Positions 12,964 to 46,339 of a stretch of 64,000 nucleotides of DNA are shown here, in pieces. The translations under genes were made by a program, and so were the position numbers. This DNA comes from Clostridiales bacterium (lineage in GTDB: Bacteria > Bacillota > Clostridia > Peptostreptococcales > Anaerovoracaceae), in contig SVCQ01000008.1 of assembly GCA_015058275.1 (NCBI GenBank), forward strand, positions 1 to 64,000. The letters are read 5' to 3'. A model generated the notes under the pieces. It searched no databases. It was not told where the DNA came from and was given only the letters and a program-made list of their open reading frames with translations. Numbering within the stretch: position 1 is the first letter of the stretch; every line of letters begins with the position of its first letter.

Positions 12964-13680
12964 TCAGTCGTCGGTCCTCTTTAACACCAGTACAGCGGCA
13001 AGGGCGAACAGCACAGCGGACGCTGCGAAGATGCCGCCTATCCACATCGCCGCATCGGCAAAGACCTGCTCCTGCATTATGTTGATGAGATTGTCCTTGT
13101 CCGGATAGAGTATCCAAAGATCGTTGTCAAAGAATATGTGATGGAACTTCGTAAAGACAAAGGTGAAGTTCCATATGGCGAGCGCGGTCACGATCAGTGC
13201 GGCCGCGAAGACGGCGGCGAGTGATCTGAGATAGCCGGCAGAGAGGAGCCTCAGCGTGCCCGTCTTACCATTGTGCATGTAGATGTATATGGTGAGAGCT
13301 ATCAGCATCAAGGCGGCTATCATCCTCCAGCGAAGGCCGGCGGTGAATAGTTCGCGGCAGTCCGCCAGGTGGGACTTCTCGCGCTCCGTAAAGAACGGAG
13401 CTGTCACCCCGTCTATTGTCGCTTCGGTATCATCGAGGGTATCGATGCGGCCTATGCAGTAGTCGAGCATGTCCTCTGTAACGTGTACGGCATCGTCAAG
13501 TGACATCTCTCCCCTGACATTGGAGGGTGTGTCATACTTTGCGTATTCATTCCTCCACCAGTTCGGGATCCAGAAGCACAGAGCCTGGACGGAAGTGGTG
13601 AGCAGGATAAGCAGCAGGCAGAGCCCGCAAATGAATGCCGCTATCTGATGTGTCAAAGCTGATTCGTGTACTTTCTTCAT
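12964..13680 (-). CDS. TIGR01906/DUF1461-like integral membrane protein
   Basis: About 238 aa from the ATG at 13680. Four hydrophobic segments (near 15-40, 125-145, 155-175 and 205-230) flank an extracytoplasmic loop of about 85 residues with the family-like stretch FFTEREKSHLADCRELF. This matches the small Firmicutes family TIGR01906, whose function is unknown. The upstream ATG at 13743 would add 21 residues that look unlike the family. Neither start has a clear Shine-Dalgarno sequence; TATAGT lies about 6 nt before the 13680 ATG, so the mRNA may be leaderless or nearly so. It is divergent from yerC across the dyad at 13736-13761. Confidence 0.72.
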   Translation of the reverse strand: MKKVHESALTHQIAAFICGLCLLLILLTTSVQALCFWIPNWWRNEYAKYDTPSNVRGEMSLDDAVHVTEDMLDYCIGRIDTLDDTEATIDGVTAPFFTEREKSHLADCRELFTAGLRWRMIAALMLIALTIYIYMHNGKTGTLRLLSAGYLRSLAAVFAAALIVTALAIWNFTFVFTKFHHIFFDNDLWILYPDKDNLINIMQEQVFADAAMWIGGIFAASAVLFALAAVLVLKRTDD

Positions 13681-13735
13681 GGTATGACTATAGCACATAC
13701 GCGAGTGCATAAAACAATACAAAAAAATACACAAT

Positions 13736-13769
13736 ACTTTCACACGCTAAAGTGCGAAAGTAGTATAAT
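13736..13769 (+). promoter_or_regulatory. Dyad operator and -10 element of yerC
   Basis: ACTTTCACAC (13736-13745) and GTGCGAAAGT (13752-13761) form an inverted repeat with one mismatched pair around GCTAAA. TATAAT follows at 13764-13769. The dyad covers the expected -35 region, which has no good consensus hexamer. Repression by the TrpR-like YerC product is inferred. Confidence 0.55.
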
Positions 13770-13853
13770 GTCAACATCACATTCTTACAGGGGCTGACTC
13801 CCTATCCAGGGCTGCACCGGTACAGGCAGCGCTCAATCAAGAGGAATAAAGAT

Positions 13854-14147
13854 ATGATCACCGATAAAGACAGAAGTAACATGAAGCAGTTCTTCAAGGC
13901 CGTGCTGGCTCTTGAGGATGAGGAAGAATGCAGGAAGTTCTTTGATGATGTAGCGACGATCAAGGAGCTACTGGATCTGTCAGCCAGGCTCGAGGTAGCG
14001 AGGATGCTGACCGAGGGCGCTGTCTTCAGCGAGATCAGCAAGGAGACCGGTGCGAGCTCGGCCACGATAAGCCGCGTCAACAAATGTATCAGCTACGGCG
14101 AGGGCGGCTACGAGACCGTGCTGGCCAGACTTCGCGAAGACAATTAG
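13854..14147 (+). CDS. yerC: YerC/YecD family TrpR-related regulator
   Basis: 97 aa, the usual size. TrpR-like all-helical fold: DLSARLEVARMLTEGAVFSEISKETGASSATISRVNKC gives the helix-turn-helix (residues about 42-80). GAGGA lies 8 nt before the ATG. Members of this family in Gram-positives are DNA-binding repressors, but their effector and regulon are mostly unknown; tryptophan binding should not be assumed. The gene is monocistronic, with about 85 nt of leader after the probable promoter and a strong hairpin terminator downstream. Confidence 0.88.
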   Translation: MITDKDRSNMKQFFKAVLALEDEEECRKFFDDVATIKELLDLSARLEVARMLTEGAVFSEISKETGASSATISRVNKCISYGEGGYETVLARLREDN

Positions 14148-14233
14148 GATGACCGCGCCCCTCTCCGGGAAAGGGAGCGGCCGCAATCAAGAACAGGCCG
14201 CTGACAATAGCAGGTAAAACATACAGATAACAA

Positions 14234-14264
14234 AAATGCCGCTTTCGAAGCGGCGTTTTTGTAT
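14234..14264 (+). terminator. Terminator after yerC
   Basis: GCCGCTT (14240-14246) and AAGCGGC (14250-14256) form a perfect stem with loop TCG, followed by GTTTTTGT and preceded by AAAAA, so it could work in both directions. Confidence 0.85.
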
Positions 14265-14400
14265 TGATGTAGATATTGTTAAGAGGGATGAAAGTATTAT
14301 GGTGTAGTTAGGAGTGTCTAACTCTTTCTTACAAGCACATATTAGCACCGGTATTTCCTATTGTCAAGGTAGGAATTAAAATTTTTTAAAAATTTTTTGA
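14265..14400. other. AT-rich intergenic stretch between two terminators
   Basis: Part of the 314-bp gap between yerC and the leftward small gene. It holds a short inverted repeat, AGTTAG (14306-14311) with CTAACT (14318-14323), and an A/T run near 14375-14400. I see no gene or clear promoter in it. Confidence 0.4.
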
Positions 14401-14434
14401 TTACAAAACAACCGGCAGCATTTCTGCTGCCGGC
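14401..14434 (-). terminator. Terminator of the 2-hydroxyacyl-CoA dehydratase operon
   Basis: CCGGCAGCA (14412-14420) and TGCTGCCGG (14425-14433) form a perfect 9-bp stem with loop TTTC. Leftward it is followed by TTGTTTTGTAAT. Confidence 0.88.
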
Positions 14435-14461
14435 TGCCTGTTCTTAAAATCGCCCTGTCGA

Positions 14462-14632
14462 TTAGAGGTGCTGGTTCCTTGGGAGCCTGTCGTACCACTT
14501 GAGCAGGAGCGGCTCGATCATCGAAGTCAGCTTCATGTCAAGATTGAAGAAATAGACTGTGAATGTAACTACGAAGAAAGCAAGACCGCCTGTCATTACA
14601 TACAGTAATAGTTTAAAGAGTTTCTTTTTCAT
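14462..14632 (-). CDS. Small single-pass membrane protein of the dehydratase operon (56 aa)
   Basis: An open frame of 56 codons starts at the ATG 14630-14632 and ends at TAA 14462-14464. AGGAGG lies 6 nt upstream, a near-perfect Shine-Dalgarno sequence. The protein begins MKKKLFKLLLYVMTGGLAFF, has one hydrophobic helix (about 8-30) and a charged amphipathic tail with YFFNLDMKL and KWYDRLPRN. It begins 46 bp after the stop of the dehydratase large subunit and is followed at once by the operon terminator, so it belongs to that operon. I do not recognise a named family. An accessory or anchoring role for the oxygen-sensitive dehydratase is only a guess. Confidence 0.75.
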   Translation of the reverse strand: MKKKLFKLLLYVMTGGLAFFVVTFTVYFFNLDMKLTSMIEPLLLKWYDRLPRNQHL

Positions 14633-14677
14633 TTTTGCCTCCTGGTTTATTCTGCAGTTATGAATAAGCTCTGTGCT

Positions 14678-16279
14678 TTACCACGAATTCTCATCGTCAA
14701 GGATCTCCAGTGACGGATCAAGAGGCTCTTCGCCCATTACCGTCCTCATGTACTGGTTGATCTGGTCTCTTACGCCCTGTCTCGAAACGACACGAGGGTC
14801 GAAGAGCTGGTGCTGTACCCAGATCAGAGGAACGCCGAGTTCTCTTGCTCTGTCCTCGAAGAGTCCGTGCATGCCGTCCAGGGCCTTGCAGGTGATGTGC
14901 TCCCAGAGGATGATCATGTCTGCGTTGTACTGCTCTACGAACTCGAAGAGGTCGTCAAGGAGTACCTTGTAGCCGCCGTGTGTACGGTTACGCATGATCA
15001 TCTCCTCAGTCAGCATGGCCATGTCGTAGTAAGCCTGCTCTCTGTTCTCAGGAGTATCTGTCTCTGCGATCATCTCCGTGTTGATGCAGGAGAGCATGTC
15101 TGTCAGAGGCACGATGCCCCAGCAGTTGAGCAGCCATACGAGGAAGTCCATGTAGTAGTGAGACTGTACGCCCCAAACGATAGCTCTGTGGCGGTACTCA
15201 GGAGCTGCCATCTTTTGCTTTTTGTATGCCTTTTCGGCGAGCTTCATGAGCTTTTTGTCAGCCTTCTCGAATGCAGGTACTCTGCCGCAGATGGCCATGT
15301 AGTTGGTCTCTGTGTAGAGTGCGAGATTGCCGCCGAATACCTGCGGATAGTCTGTCTTGTTCATGTCGAGCCATTCGTTACGGGCCTTGGTAGCCACATT
15401 GACTCTGTGTGCGCACTCGAAGTAGTAATCCCAGTCCCACTTGTGGCCGGTGTTCTCTTCGACGAACTTGATCGCTCTTCTGATCTCCTCAGCAGCGTAG
15501 TCCTGTACGTCCTCCTCCTTGTGACGGAGCGGAGCCGGCAGCTGGAATACAGGGATGCCGTCTTCCTTTTCGAGCTTCCTCGAGATAACTCCGTTACCGA
15601 GAAGCGAACCGTCGCAGGTTGTGTTGCACTGGATAGCGCAGGCACCGAGGATAGGAGCGTCATCGTCTATGGACGTGCCGGCCTCAGCAGCAGGCATCGG
15701 GCAGACGTCGCCCGGAAGTCCGAATTCCTGTACTACGTCGAGGTAGTGCTCTACAGCGTGCTGGTTGAGCAGTACCGGTACGTAAGTCGAAGGTGTCTCA
15801 CGGCTTGTAGTCTTGATATCCGGGAATCCCATCATGACAGCTGTCATTTCGTTCTCGTCTACGAGTACTACCTTCTTTGAGAACTCTTCGTCATTACCGA
15901 CTCTGCGGTCGCCGCGGGCGAGGTTGCCGAGCAGCTTGGCTACGTCGATGATGATGAGGTCCTGCTCCTCGTGAGCCATGCGGAGGTATTCGCCTCTGAG
16001 GCCCTGTGTGAAGCGGTCGACCATCATCGGTACTGCCAGATAGTTGGCCATCCAGCGGTATCTGAAGAAGAATTTGATATTGCGCGGCACTACCATGAAT
16101 TTACCGAGTGTGAACAGGATGCCGAGCCATCTCGAATAATCGTACAGTGTGTCGCCTACTCCGCGCCACTCACGGCGTTTTCTGACCTTGCCGTGCGGTT
16201 TATATAAGTCACCGTATCTTGTATCACCTTTGATCTTTTCAGGGTTGATCATGACCTTTGCTTTTTTGATTGCCATCAC
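14678..16279 (-). CDS. 2-hydroxyacyl-CoA dehydratase family subunit (large)
   Basis: 533 aa, longer than HgdA or FldB (about 400-480). It belongs to the 2-hydroxyacyl-CoA dehydratase / benzoyl-CoA reductase family, which uses a [4Fe-4S] cluster and ketyl-radical chemistry for syn-elimination of water from 2-hydroxyacyl-CoA in amino-acid fermentation. Candidate cluster cysteines lie in the segment from DVCPMPAAEAG to CAIQCNTTCDGSLLG (roughly 200-240). Its start overlaps the stop of the upstream subunit by 4 nt (ATGA type), so the two are coupled and presumably form a heterodimer. Substrate unknown. The ATP-dependent activator (HgdC type) is not in this window and must be elsewhere if the enzyme is active. 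Confidence 0.87.
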   Translation of the reverse strand: MMAIKKAKVMINPEKIKGDTRYGDLYKPHGKVRKRREWRGVGDTLYDYSRWLGILFTLGKFMVVPRNIKFFFRYRWMANYLAVPMMVDRFTQGLRGEYLRMAHEEQDLIIIDVAKLLGNLARGDRRVGNDEEFSKKVVLVDENEMTAVMMGFPDIKTTSRETPSTYVPVLLNQHAVEHYLDVVQEFGLPGDVCPMPAAEAGTSIDDDAPILGACAIQCNTTCDGSLLGNGVISRKLEKEDGIPVFQLPAPLRHKEEDVQDYAAEEIRRAIKFVEENTGHKWDWDYYFECAHRVNVATKARNEWLDMNKTDYPQVFGGNLALYTETNYMAICGRVPAFEKADKKLMKLAEKAYKKQKMAAPEYRHRAIVWGVQSHYYMDFLVWLLNCWGIVPLTDMLSCINTEMIAETDTPENREQAYYDMAMLTEEMIMRNRTHGGYKVLLDDLFEFVEQYNADMIILWEHITCKALDGMHGLFEDRARELGVPLIWVQHQLFDPRVVSRQGVRDQINQYMRTVMGEEPLDPSLEILDDENSW

Positions 16280-43062: not shown

Positions 43063-44340
43063 CTAATCCTCCATCATCAGGCGGATTATCTCTTCGTCTG
43101 TCTCCTTCATGCCGAAGCGGGCGAGCCTGCCGACTGTATCGATCGTCTTTTCGATACCCTCCTTGACAAGTCCGTCGCCTCCGAAGAAGTTGTTGCCTTT
43201 GTTATACATGGACAGTCCCATGAGGCCTGCCTCTACTGCCATGGAGATCTTGCCTGCACAGCTTGCCTTGGCTCCGTCGCAGACTATGCCGGAGTCTATC
43301 GCAATCGCGTTGACCGTGGTGTGGGCCACTCCGTCCACGCCGAGGCCCTGCATGTATGCGATGCCGGCTCCCGCTCCCGCGCCGGCGCTCACCGCGCCGC
43401 AGTAGGCCGAGAGCCTGCCGATGCCCGTCTTGAGGTGGGCTGTTACGAGGTTGGATACACAGAGCGCTCTGTAGAGATCCTCAGTGGATCTGTTCCTGGC
43501 TCTCGAGTATACGACCACAGGCACGCTGGCTGTGATGCCCTGGTTGCCGCTGCCGGAGTTGATGACTACCGGGAGCTCGCATCCGTTCATACGTGCGTCG
43601 CTTCCCGCCGCGGCGTAGGCTCTCATGACGTATTTGATATCGTATTCGTGGCCCAGCATCAGAGTGCTGCCTATATTGGCTCCATAGTCGCCGCTGAGGC
43701 CCTCCTCTGCTATGGCCATGTTGTAGCTGACCTGTCTTTCGAGAACTTCTCTGACATCCTCGATATCCACGCTGTCTGCGAACTCGACTATGCCTTCCAT
43801 GCTGAGGCAGCTTCTGTCGGTAAGACCCGACTCTCTGGACTCGCCGGTCTCCTTCTCGAGCTGCACATCGTCATTCCTGCGCACCAGCACGATGTTGGTG
43901 TGGTAATCCACTATCCTGACGCAGGCTTCGTCGCTTCCCTTGTATGCGGTGACAGCTATGTCAAAGATATGCCCGTTGTCGACGTGGCGTATCTCTATCT
44001 CCTTTGTGTCCAGGAAGTCCTGTATCTCCCTGATCTGGTCTTCCGTGACATTCGAGATTACCTCAAGCTCTGCATCGGCATCGCCCGCGACAGCTCCGGC
44101 AGCAGCCGCAGCCGGTATGCCTCTCAGGCCTCCCGTATGAGGCACTACAACGCTCTTGACGTTCTTGATTATATTGCCGCTTACTTCCACGAGGAGCCTG
44201 TCGGGTGTAACGCCCAGGACCCCGGCAGCCTTGGCGGCCGCGTAGGCGATGGCGATAGGCTCTGTACAGCCCATGGCCGGAAGAAGTTCTTCCTTGAGGA
44301 TCTGTACGTACGCTTGGTATCTCGGGTCTTTTTTGTCCAT
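43063..44340 (-). CDS. CyuA-like L-cysteine desulfidase / serine dehydratase alpha family protein
   Basis: About 425 aa, UPF0597 (YhaM/CyuA) family. The hallmark start ELLPAMGCTEPIAIAYAAAKA with the first cluster Cys is at about 25. Other conserved stretches are VSGNIIKNVKSVVVPHTGG, INSGSGNQGITASVPV, and GAVSAGAGAGAGIAY with IVCDGAKASCAGKIS containing further cluster cysteines. Members carry a [4Fe-4S] cluster and release H2S, ammonia and pyruvate from cysteine, or deaminate serine. The frame opens at a GTG (44349), but the ATG at 44340 has AAGGAAG 10 nt upstream. The upstream selenoprotein-like gene ends within this leader, so both are translated as a pair. Confidence 0.88.
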   Translation of the reverse strand: MDKKDPRYQAYVQILKEELLPAMGCTEPIAIAYAAAKAAGVLGVTPDRLLVEVSGNIIKNVKSVVVPHTGGLRGIPAAAAAGAVAGDADAELEVISNVTEDQIREIQDFLDTKEIEIRHVDNGHIFDIAVTAYKGSDEACVRIVDYHTNIVLVRRNDDVQLEKETGESRESGLTDRSCLSMEGIVEFADSVDIEDVREVLERQVSYNMAIAEEGLSGDYGANIGSTLMLGHEYDIKYVMRAYAAAGSDARMNGCELPVVINSGSGNQGITASVPVVVYSRARNRSTEDLYRALCVSNLVTAHLKTGIGRLSAYCGAVSAGAGAGAGIAYMQGLGVDGVAHTTVNAIAIDSGIVCDGAKASCAGKISMAVEAGLMGLSMYNKGNNFFGGDGLVKEGIEKTIDTVGRLARFGMKETDEEIIRLMMED

Positions 44341-44345
44341 TTCTG

Positions 44346-44693
44346 TCACACTTCCTTATCTGTATCTTTGCTGTTGATGCCCGGCTGCCAGATGCAGCAG
44401 GTCTGAGACGGACGGATGCCGTCTATCTCGAATTTATGTATCCACGGGTACTTCATGTACCTGATCCCCGGCTCCTCATCGAGCTCCACGGAATGGAGCG
44501 GGATGTATACAAGCCCGATCGGGGACCTTTCGATCATGTATTCGTCCGGGGACAGTTCTTCGTCGGTAAAACTTACCGCCACCTCCGCCCTGGAGGGATC
44601 GCATCAGGTCCTGCCGTCACCGGTCAGGAGCACTATGTCTTTGAAACCGAGACGCTCCATGTACCTGATCGCTTCATCGTTGAGTCTGATCAT
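44346..44693 (-). CDS. Candidate selenoprotein with in-frame UGA (Sec30-Cys31), CC/Se-motif-like
   Basis: Read through one UGA (44604-44606), the frame from ATG 44693 to TGA 44346 encodes 115 residues. The first 29 end in LLTGDGRT; then UGA, then CDPSRAEVAVSFTDEELS onward, ending GINSKDTDKEV. GAGG lies 6 nt before the ATG, 10 bp after the ProX stop, and the final stop overlaps the cyuA leader, so the ORF fits the operon exactly. Two SECIS-like hairpins follow the UGA. The layout (short alpha-beta N-terminus, then Sec-Cys pair) resembles small clostridial (seleno)proteins with CC or UC motifs. An ordinary gene finder would call only the 3' part from GTG 44582. No sel genes are in the window. 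Function unknown; a redox role is expected from the U-C pair. Confidence 0.7.
44564..44596 (-). promoter_or_regulatory. SECIS-like hairpins after the in-frame UGA
   Basis: Leftward from the UGA, CCTCC-AGGGC-GGAGG (44596-44582) has its loop 12 nt after the UGA with G at the second loop position. CGGTAA-GTT-TTACCG (44578-44564) has its loop 31 nt after the UGA with G first. Bacterial SECIS elements need a short stem with G in the first two loop positions about 16-37 nt from the UGA; the second hairpin meets this and the first is borderline. Confidence 0.55.
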
Positions 44694-44703
44694 GGGAAAC
44701 CTC

Positions 44704-45192
44704 TTAAAGCTTTACGAAGTGGAGCTCGTTGCCGTGGTCCTTTATGAGCTTTGCGACGTCGCGGCAGCCCACATATACTGTCGCGGTATTGTCGCACGGA
44801 TGGATGCCCATGAGCTTGTGCTCGAAGTCTTTGTCCAGGTATACGACCACGTCCCTGTCATCGTTATTGAGTATGCCAAACGGCGTGACCGCACCTCGAA
44901 TGAGCCCCATCTTGTCCATCAGATCCTCCTCGGACGCGAAGGTCAGAGGTCTTGTATCGAATTCCTTCCTGAACTCCTTGAGGTTGATCTTTTTGTCCTC
45001 GAGGCATGTGATCAGGTAGTACCTGCGCTTTTTGTCATCCCTGATGAAGAGATTCTTGGCGATCTGCTCCGGATGAGGCAGGCCGCACTCGAGCATCTCA
45101 TCTATGGTGTACACGGCTTTGTGTTCGACGATCTCGTATTTGATCTTCTTATCGTCAAGCAGTCTGACGATGTCATCCTTTGTGAGCGGCAT
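44704..45192 (-). CDS. ProX/YbaK-like prolyl-tRNA deacylase
   Basis: 162 aa, one YbaK/ProX editing domain. Conserved features: YEIVEHKAVYTIDEM at the start, IAKNLFIRDDKKRRYYLI with the catalytic-region Lys, RPLTFASEEDLMDKMGLIRGAVTPFGI (family GxVTPFG motif) and DVVVYLDKDF. It hydrolyses mischarged Ala-tRNA(Pro) or Cys-tRNA(Pro) in trans. In clostridia the related PrdX gene sits with proline reductase; none is seen here. It lies between galM (20 bp) and the selenoprotein candidate (10 bp). Confidence 0.88.
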   Translation of the reverse strand: MPLTKDDIVRLLDDKKIKYEIVEHKAVYTIDEMLECGLPHPEQIAKNLFIRDDKKRRYYLITCLEDKKINLKEFRKEFDTRPLTFASEEDLMDKMGLIRGAVTPFGILNNDDRDVVVYLDKDFEHKLMGIHPCDNTATVYVGCRDVAKLIKDHGNELHFVKL

Positions 45193-45211
45193 CTGAAGTC
45201 CTCCCCTCTGT

Positions 45212-46339
45212 CTATGATGAGAATCTGTATGTTGTCCTCGATGTGAACTTCTCTCCGGCTCTTATGAAGCCTCCCGGGAAGTCCTCGTGATTGACCGAAT
45301 CCGGCCAGAACTGGGTCTCAAAGCAGACCCCGCTGCGCGGCCCGTAGACGGCTCCGTCCTTGCCGGTCTCGCCTTCCATGCCGTTGGCCGTATAGAGCTG
45401 GACACCCGGCATGTCCGTCAGCACGTCCATGCGTATGCCCGTGACTCTTGAGTACAGCGTAGCGGTCTCGCAGTAGCCCTGGGCAACCGCCGGCGTCACG
45501 TAGTTGTGATCATAGCCGCCTCCCGCCTTAAGAGCGTCGTAGTCGGCATCGATGTCCCTGCCGAGAGCCTTCGGTATCCTGAAATCCATCGGAGTGCCGG
45601 TCACGTCCCTCAGCTCACCCGTCGGCAGGAGGTCATCGTCCGATGCGGTGAAGGTGCCCGAGTGGATCTGCACCACCTGGTCGAGCACGCTCCCGCTATT
45701 GTGACCGTCCATGTTGAAATAGCTGTGGTTGGTCAGATTGAGCGGAGTGTCCGAAGCAGACTCCGCGGCGTAATCTATGTGGAGCTCGTTGTCGTCTGTC
45801 AGGGTGTATGTCACCTCGACGTGAACCGCCCCCGGGAAGCCCTGGTCTCCGTCCGGGCTGTCCAGGGTGAACGTGACTGTCTTGTTGGACACATTGTATC
45901 TGGCAAGCGATGATACTCCGTCGCTTATGCTCTCAGGAGCACTCGCTCCCATGACGTCTCTTGAGCTGACCTGTCCGAAAGGGATCCTGACATCCCACAG
46001 CCTCTTTGAGTACGGATCGCAGCCGCCGTGAAGGGTATTCGGTCCGTTGTTGACTGTAAGCTCAAATGTCCTGCCGTCAAGCGTGAAGCTTCCGCCGCCT
46101 ATCCTGTTGGCGACCCTGCCCACCACAGCTCCGATCGAGCCGTGCCCGTTCTCATAACCCGATACATCATCATGACCGAGCACCACATCCTTAAGAGCTC
46201 CCATCCTGTCAGGAACGAATATGCTCACTATGGATGCGCCGTAATCCGTCAGAGACACTGTCATGCCTCTGCTGTTACGCAGTATGTACAGTCCGGCCCG
46301 CCTGCCGTCGCTGAGTCTTCCGAAGGATAAAGTCTCCAT
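45212..46339 (-). CDS. galM: Aldose 1-epimerase (galactose mutarotase)
   Basis: 375 aa. Active-site segments: VGRVANRIGGGSFTLDG near 70, the catalytic His in NLTNHSYFNMDGH near 205, YDHNYV near 275, and the catalytic Glu in GVCFETQFWPDSVNHEDFPG near 340. It interconverts alpha and beta anomers of hexoses in the cytoplasm. No galK, galT or galE gene is nearby, so its presence in this operon looks incidental. It follows the HerA-like gene by 4 bp. Confidence 0.93.
   Translation of the reverse strand: METLSFGRLSDGRRAGLYILRNSRGMTVSLTDYGASIVSIFVPDRMGALKDVVLGHDDVSGYENGHGSIGAVVGRVANRIGGGSFTLDGRTFELTVNNGPNTLHGGCDPYSKRLWDVRIPFGQVSSRDVMGASAPESISDGVSSLARYNVSNKTVTFTLDSPDGDQGFPGAVHVEVTYTLTDDNELHIDYAAESASDTPLNLTNHSYFNMDGHNSGSVLDQVVQIHSGTFTASDDDLLPTGELRDVTGTPMDFRIPKALGRDIDADYDALKAGGGYDHNYVTPAVAQGYCETATLYSRVTGIRMDVLTDMPGVQLYTANGMEGETGKDGAVYGPRSGVCFETQFWPDSVNHEDFPGGFIRAGEKFTSRTTYRFSS

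Follow-up and report, generated by a model that had tools for sequence, protein, structure and literature searches.

Background

Two described families come closest to the gene reported in this work. The first is the CC/Se motif family (accession NF041239), which is predicted in Moorella thermoacetica (Table 1 of PMC13188914) and, in the available part of the same review, is counted among the selenoproteins, for most of which the functions are described as not clear; a full-text search of the literature for NF041239 found the family accession mentioned in this review alone. The second is the HesB-like selenoprotein, presented in the available part of PMC11097638 as a distant IscA relative of unclear function. 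As for the signal of selenocysteine insertion, the bSECIS model is published with an energy limit of -7.5 kcal/mol, as given in the accessible portion of PMC13188914.

Here we study a window of 64,000 nucleotides, that is, the whole stretch of DNA analysed (positions 1 to 64,000 of contig SVCQ01000008.1, assembly GCA_015058275.1, Clostridiales bacterium), in which a preliminary description had proposed a selenoprotein gene split by an in-frame UGA. On the whole our results support this reading: the conserved UGA, the presence of the sel genes, the Cys-bearing relatives and a covarying hairpin indicate that the gene very probably encodes a selenoprotein, and profile comparison places it in a divergent subfamily with kinship to the CC/Se family (NF041239). 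To the selenoprotein and its family together we assign a probability of about 0.93.

The UGA-containing gene

The gene lies at 44693-44346 on the minus strand and comprises 115 codons. Its start codon is the ATG at 44693, preceded by an AAGAGG whose end lies 6 nt upstream; from there it runs for 29 codons to the in-frame TGA at 44606-44604 (codon 30), and continues with TGC (Cys31, 44603-44601) and 84 further codons to the terminator TGA at 44348-44346; a Cys-Cys pair is encoded at residues 99-100 (44399-44394). The split frame with a Cys codon after the UGA, previously given without a strand, is real and belongs to the minus strand. The full frame also fits the operon layout that had been claimed for it, as the upstream gene, which is YbaK/ProX-like, extends to 44704 and leaves a gap of 10 nt before the start, and the next ORF overlaps the stop, with a GTG at 44349 and an in-frame ATG at 44340. 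For this part of the frame, a list of ORFs with a lower limit of 60 aa has a single entry, of 78 aa from GTG 44582, in agreement with the earlier expectation of a truncated annotation, and ordinary annotation would probably yield this 78-aa fragment. On the plus strand, an ORF of 276 aa at 44416-45246 runs antisense to the selenoprotein and YbaK-like genes, and is probably a by-product of codon usage.

Conservation of the UGA

Searching 148 genomes of the bacterial family with the window protein gives matches in 16 genomes (17 rows). Among them, 11 rows are near full-length, all 11 with TGA, and the other six are chance matches, which span 45-53 residues within long ORFs (628-768 aa) and have no UGA. 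A profile built from seven members matches 57 rows in 53 of 349 family genomes, with TGA in 54 rows; the three rows lacking it are a Cys-Cys copy in G715, the second piece of a broken copy in G575, and a weak partial match (G560:C24, L152), the last of which was left out of the copies read. Overall, the UGA stands at the codon 30 position in 54 of the 55 gene copies read, window included, a count that takes in the broken G575 copy and a G598 copy cut by a contig end, while the G715 copy has Cys-Cys. The subfamily of the window makes up 45 of these 55 copies (38 come from the same genus as the window) and has TGA in all 45, followed by TGC (27 copies) or TGT (18 copies). Since the same codon is UGA in 54 of 55 copies and the next codon is Cys in 45 of 45 subfamily copies, the UGA at codon 30 is not due to chance.

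Beyond the bacterial family, 15 of 391 genomes in a search of the class have a match, mostly weak, and in the order an NF041239 match is present in 92 of 297 genomes, above its cut-off in 63. In class and order the wider family includes both TGA-bearing and uninterrupted copies, and those uninterrupted ones that were read have Cys at the place of the UGA. The pattern which had been named as the mark of a pseudogene, that is, homologues with a stop in the same place but no Cys or Sec relatives, is not what we find, as the UGA is kept in 54 of 55 copies and related genes without it carry Cys. A model of the subfamily matches only the window's own genome among 398 genomes of the phylum, and a scan of viral contigs gave no match. 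One locus from Acidobacteriia (L043) was rejected as a relative, being a short, unrelated-looking frame with 7.1 bits against the subfamily profile.

Hairpins 3' of the UGA

Single copies of the gene fold as two hairpins 3' of the UGA. Hairpin I (CCUCC paired with GGAGG, 44596-44582, minus strand) is indicated by folding, alignment and codon choice; hairpin II, the likely SECIS, lies at 44580-44562 on the same strand, with the loop AGUUU at 44573-44569. The distance from the UGA to the start of the hairpin II loop is 30 nt in the subfamily; in nine more distant UGA copies, which have one codon fewer, it is 27 nt. When 35 distinct segments are compared (245 cells), hairpin II is paired in 96.7% of the cells, and both-side changes occur at six of its seven pairs. 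Its covariation score of 0.559 compares with a mean of 0.271 for shuffles, none of 500 reaching it, and slid versions score at most 0.219. The loop has 5 nt, and the G at its second place is invariant in the same 35 segments. In hairpin I the register shifts by one base where Pro-Pro is replaced by Pro-Ser, with 4-5 pairs kept. Synonymous constraint is also evident against the background of the neighbouring ORFs: Glu37 is GAG in 42 of 42 copies (background 55%), Phe42 is TTT in 40 of 45 (30%), and residue 34, where it is Ser, is TCC in 18 of 18 (18%).

The window copy itself carries a G.A mismatch in hairpin II, arising from A39 (GCG). Its hairpin II alone has -5.5 kcal/mol and the 51-nt two-hairpin region -13.5 kcal/mol; folding of the 60-nt region is no more favourable than that of its shuffled versions (z +0.33), and six relatives that were folded give z from -1.18 to -2.41. 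Because the window hairpin alone is weak, the case for a SECIS rests on the comparison of relatives and not on the folding energy of this copy. The SECIS hairpin suggested in the preliminary description covaries strongly across relatives, and its copy in the window is weakened by the single mismatch. An Rfam scan of the window at the gathering threshold found no match.

Selenocysteine machinery

The genome carrying the window is 82.8% complete, and selA, selB, selC and selD, whose absence would have spoken against a selenoprotein, are all present. Contig C30 carries, next to one another, the tRNA-Sec (71.9 bits, cut-off 47; anticodon tca (UCA) by ARAGORN), SelB (372.4 bits) and SelA, whose two pieces together score 551.6 bits; SelD (368.7 bits; L154, G000:C22:94247-95185) is on C22. 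The selD gene has one in-frame TGA, within GGUGAK, and is therefore a second UGA gene in the same genome; SelD is of a kind known to occur as a selenoprotein. Another locus, at C12:151892-151976, is just above the tRNA-Sec cut-off (48.5 bits versus 47).

In the genus, selB is found in 37 of the 38 genomes with the UGA gene, versus five of the nine without it (Fisher p 0.003); in these five members with selB no copy of the UGA gene was found. Among 22 chosen genomes outside the genus, 18 have selB. Three of the four lacking it (G715, G475 and G261) have uninterrupted Cys-Cys copies, G715 being the one with the lone non-UGA copy among the 55 read, and the fourth, G685, has UGA copies in an assembly that is 89% complete and in about 260 contigs. 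G685 and G557 (82% complete) are the two UGA-bearing genomes without detected selB among those tested, and two further genomes, G236 and G253, have selB plus Cys-Cys copies. In G036, a UGA-bearing gene of CC/Se type (L149) closely follows selB in the same orientation (C93:14932-15219 and 13015-14823, respectively).

In the mechanism that we propose, the ribosome would read the UGA at 44606-44604 as selenocysteine by means of tRNA-Sec and SelB, the hairpin at 44580-44562 would direct the insertion at this codon, and the product would be a protein of 115 aa with a U30-C31 pair.

Family assignment and branches

The window protein matches no Pfam family at E up to 10, and its one NCBIfam match, TIGR01512 (E 0.35), was discarded as due to chance. 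It has no match to NF041239 at E up to 10, and four of nine relatives match this family weakly, the best with 23.8 bits versus the cut-off of 40. The window's own genome has no NF041239 match at E up to 0.001 and no PF01521 match.

Profile comparisons by hhalign reach further. The subfamily is joined to the distant members within the bacterial family at 99.6% (reversed-sequence control 0.3%), and to the CC/Se loci at 97.7%, or 98.2% in an independent alignment (reversed control 1.3%), with an alignment that spans the whole core. The CC/Se loci in turn match the HesB-like loci, which were fetched with PF01521, at 96.7% (reversed control 19.6%). The direct match between the subfamily and the HesB-like loci is weak, at 8.2% (reversed 1.2%), and eight unrelated neighbour families reach at most 2.7%. 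In addition, a comparison of 15 CC/Se loci with PF01521 gave matches for eight of them at E up to 0.1, the best having 1.6e-6. A PDB sequence search with the subfamily profile gave four weak matches (best E 0.0059), and one with the CC/Se set gave none at E up to 1; single-sequence AlphaFold2 of the window protein gave no usable structure (pLDDT 38.5).

In these comparisons 42 CC/Se loci were handled, 30 from the NF041239 search of the order and 12 from the class search, and 34 of them entered the profile that gave 97.7%. The omitted loci are L069 and L076 (misframed), L040 and L041 (partial matches), and L032, L034, L037 and L042 (by choice), of which L034 and L037 start inside the protein. 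The set of 15 rows used for the 98.2% alignment and for the PF01521 and PDB tests has 12 loci from the order search and three from the class search, and the HesB-like profile holds 24 of 25 loci, the misframed L167 being dropped by length. Taken together, the profile comparisons clearly indicate that the window protein is a divergent relative of the NF041239 "CC/Se motif family (seleno)protein", and the CC/Se family in turn is apparently an outlying branch of HesB/IscA (Fe-S_biosyn). The window protein would then be a remote HesB/IscA relative, linked to that family only through its CC/Se relatives.

In a tree of 55 rows, based on few columns and with the bootstrap not settled, the window groups with 17 others (100/100). 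Of the 18 members of this clade, 17 have Cys-Cys in a short tail, and it was seen in none of the other rows within the tail stretch printed for them. Another 20 copies from the genus belong to the subfamily, and in 18 of them (among L103-L137) the core is followed by a C-terminal extension of about 110-165 aa, for which a scan of one extended copy gave no Pfam or NCBIfam match. Those of the extensions that were looked at share a stretch EN[MV]WRxG. Five copies elsewhere in the bacterial family have another tail, and the one that was scanned resembles a winged helix below threshold (HTH_27, 17.2 bits versus the cut-off of 22.2). HesB/IscA proteins have three Cys ligands, one central and two C-terminal; the window protein has U30 and C99-C100.

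Gene neighbourhood and possible function

The genes around the UGA-containing gene are all on the minus strand. Upstream, 45192-44704 encodes an aminoacyl-tRNA editing domain, YbaK/ProX-like (PF04073, 89.9 bits), and a gene with this domain is directly upstream in 13 of the 18 clade members. Downstream lie an SDH_alpha domain gene (PF03313, 204.2 bits; 44349-43063), which is presumably CyuA/UPF0597-like, the large part of aconitase X (PF04412, 309.7 bits; 43043-41739) and its swivel domain (PF01989, 51.1 bits; 41737-41279), and the sodium:alanine symporter agcS (TIGR00835, 444.1 bits; 41109-39682). The symporter is downstream in 14 of the 18 members; SDH_alpha and aconitase X are there only in the window and in G580, for which no symporter was found in the stretch examined. 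In the extended branch a three-gene ABC importer is downstream in 12 of 18 loci, and by reading it looks like a methionine-type, MetNIQ-like importer.

A different setting is seen among the CC/Se relatives. In four of 42 loci (L073, L079, L084 and L085), a sublineage with the motif UCHSG or UCRSG has an arsR-type gene on its upstream side and acr3 downstream, and in three of the four a downstream gene of arsenate-reductase type (LMWPc) adjoins the CC/Se gene according to BLAST clusters; the profile scores are 62.9 bits for ArsR and 84.7 bits for LMWPc in L073, and 383.1 bits for ACR3 in L079. Another UCHSG sublineage (L072, L074, L078, L081, L086 and L087) adjoins, on the opposite strand, a gene for a PLP-dependent enzyme that we take to be D-cysteine desulfhydrase-like; it was identified as PALP by scan for L072 and by BLAST cluster for the other five.

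Based on the arsenic-operon setting, the relationship to IscA and a Cys-Cys tail that follows U30 by 69-70 residues, we hold it most likely, though at no better than about even odds, that the selenol-thiol pair binds a soft metal(loid) or an Fe-S cluster. The U30-C31 pair, standing at the place of the HesB-like Sec, would bind the metal(loid) or cluster together with the C-terminal Cys-Cys, and the protein may act as a small carrier in an operon of amino-acid uptake and catabolism. On the other hand, it is quite possible that the selenoprotein is real and its role is thiol/selenol redox (e.g. through a selenenyl-sulfide) or amino-acid metabolism instead. The shared operon with the tRNA-editing-domain protein and the amino-acid symporter, here also with SDH_alpha and aconitase X, agrees with such a role, as does the importer gene set of the extended branch, whereas the HesB/IscA kinship and the arsenic operons of one CC/Se sublineage point to metal(loid) binding, and the neighbours differ between branches, so that the operon need not reveal the role.

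Returning to metal(loid) or Fe-S binding, a further and rather speculative suggestion concerns evolution: in the window's clade a HesB/IscA-like carrier may have turned selenium-based, with Sec-Cys and a newly acquired Cys-Cys holding the metal(loid) or Fe-S cluster, and with CC/Se members serving arsenic operons. If true, the CC/Se superfamily would be a set of selenol-based metal(loid) carriers. The profile link between CC/Se and HesB/IscA, along with the arsenic operons of the sister lineage, at least gives a concrete, testable guess at function for selenoproteins without an assigned role.

Alternative readings of the UGA

It is very improbable that the UGA is a true stop, leaving a pseudogene or two separate small genes. 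Standard ORF calling does yield a 78-aa ORF from GTG 44582, and in the G575 relative the frame is broken, as it contains a TAA in addition to the TGA; however, the UGA is fixed in all 45 subfamily copies (38 in the window's genus), the hairpin covaries, and the Cys relatives are in one piece. Moreover, constraint at the protein level extends over both sides of the UGA, with pooled pN/pS of 0.49 and 0.50 at synonymous changes near saturation, and, for the window versus its sister G580, 0.16 before the UGA and 0.39 after it.

Insertion of a standard amino acid (Trp, Cys or Gly) at the UGA, whether through suppression or through an altered genetic code, would leave the frame equally open but is hardly credible, as UGA is still a terminator (the split gene itself ends in TGA, and its relatives in TGA, TAA or TAG), tRNA-Sec (anticodon tca), SelA and SelB are present, the UGA-less copies carry Cys at the codon 30 place, and the hairpin is inside the UGA-to-SECIS spacing published in the available part of PMC13188914.

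Comparison with known systems

The selenoprotein favoured here belongs to a subfamily that is limited to one bacterial family in the genomes sampled and that falls below the Pfam and NCBIfam cut-offs in the proteins scanned. With the HesB-like and IscA proteins (TIGR01911, PF01521) it shares U-x-x-P at the active site, which is found in both the subfamily and the HesB-like loci; unlike them, the window protein has no family match, and a C-terminal Cys-Cys was seen only in its own clade. The likeness to the NF041239 CC/Se family lies in the length of the core (about 90-100 aa), the place of the U/C motif and the exchange of Sec and Cys. The differences from that family are the Cys-Cys tail of the window's clade and the motif, which is U-C-x-P in 43 of the subfamily's 45 copies and is given as CxxU for the family in the available part of the review (PMC13188914).

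The SECIS is a well-supported one, and its tandem hairpin offers material for testing SelB recognition. Compared with the bSECIS model, as far as the accessible portion of PMC13188914 describes it, hairpin II of the window alone is short of -7.5 kcal/mol, and an extra conserved hairpin stands between the UGA and the SECIS in this subfamily, while the 5-nt loop with G at the second place, 30 nt from the UGA and inside the published spacing, is like that of the model.
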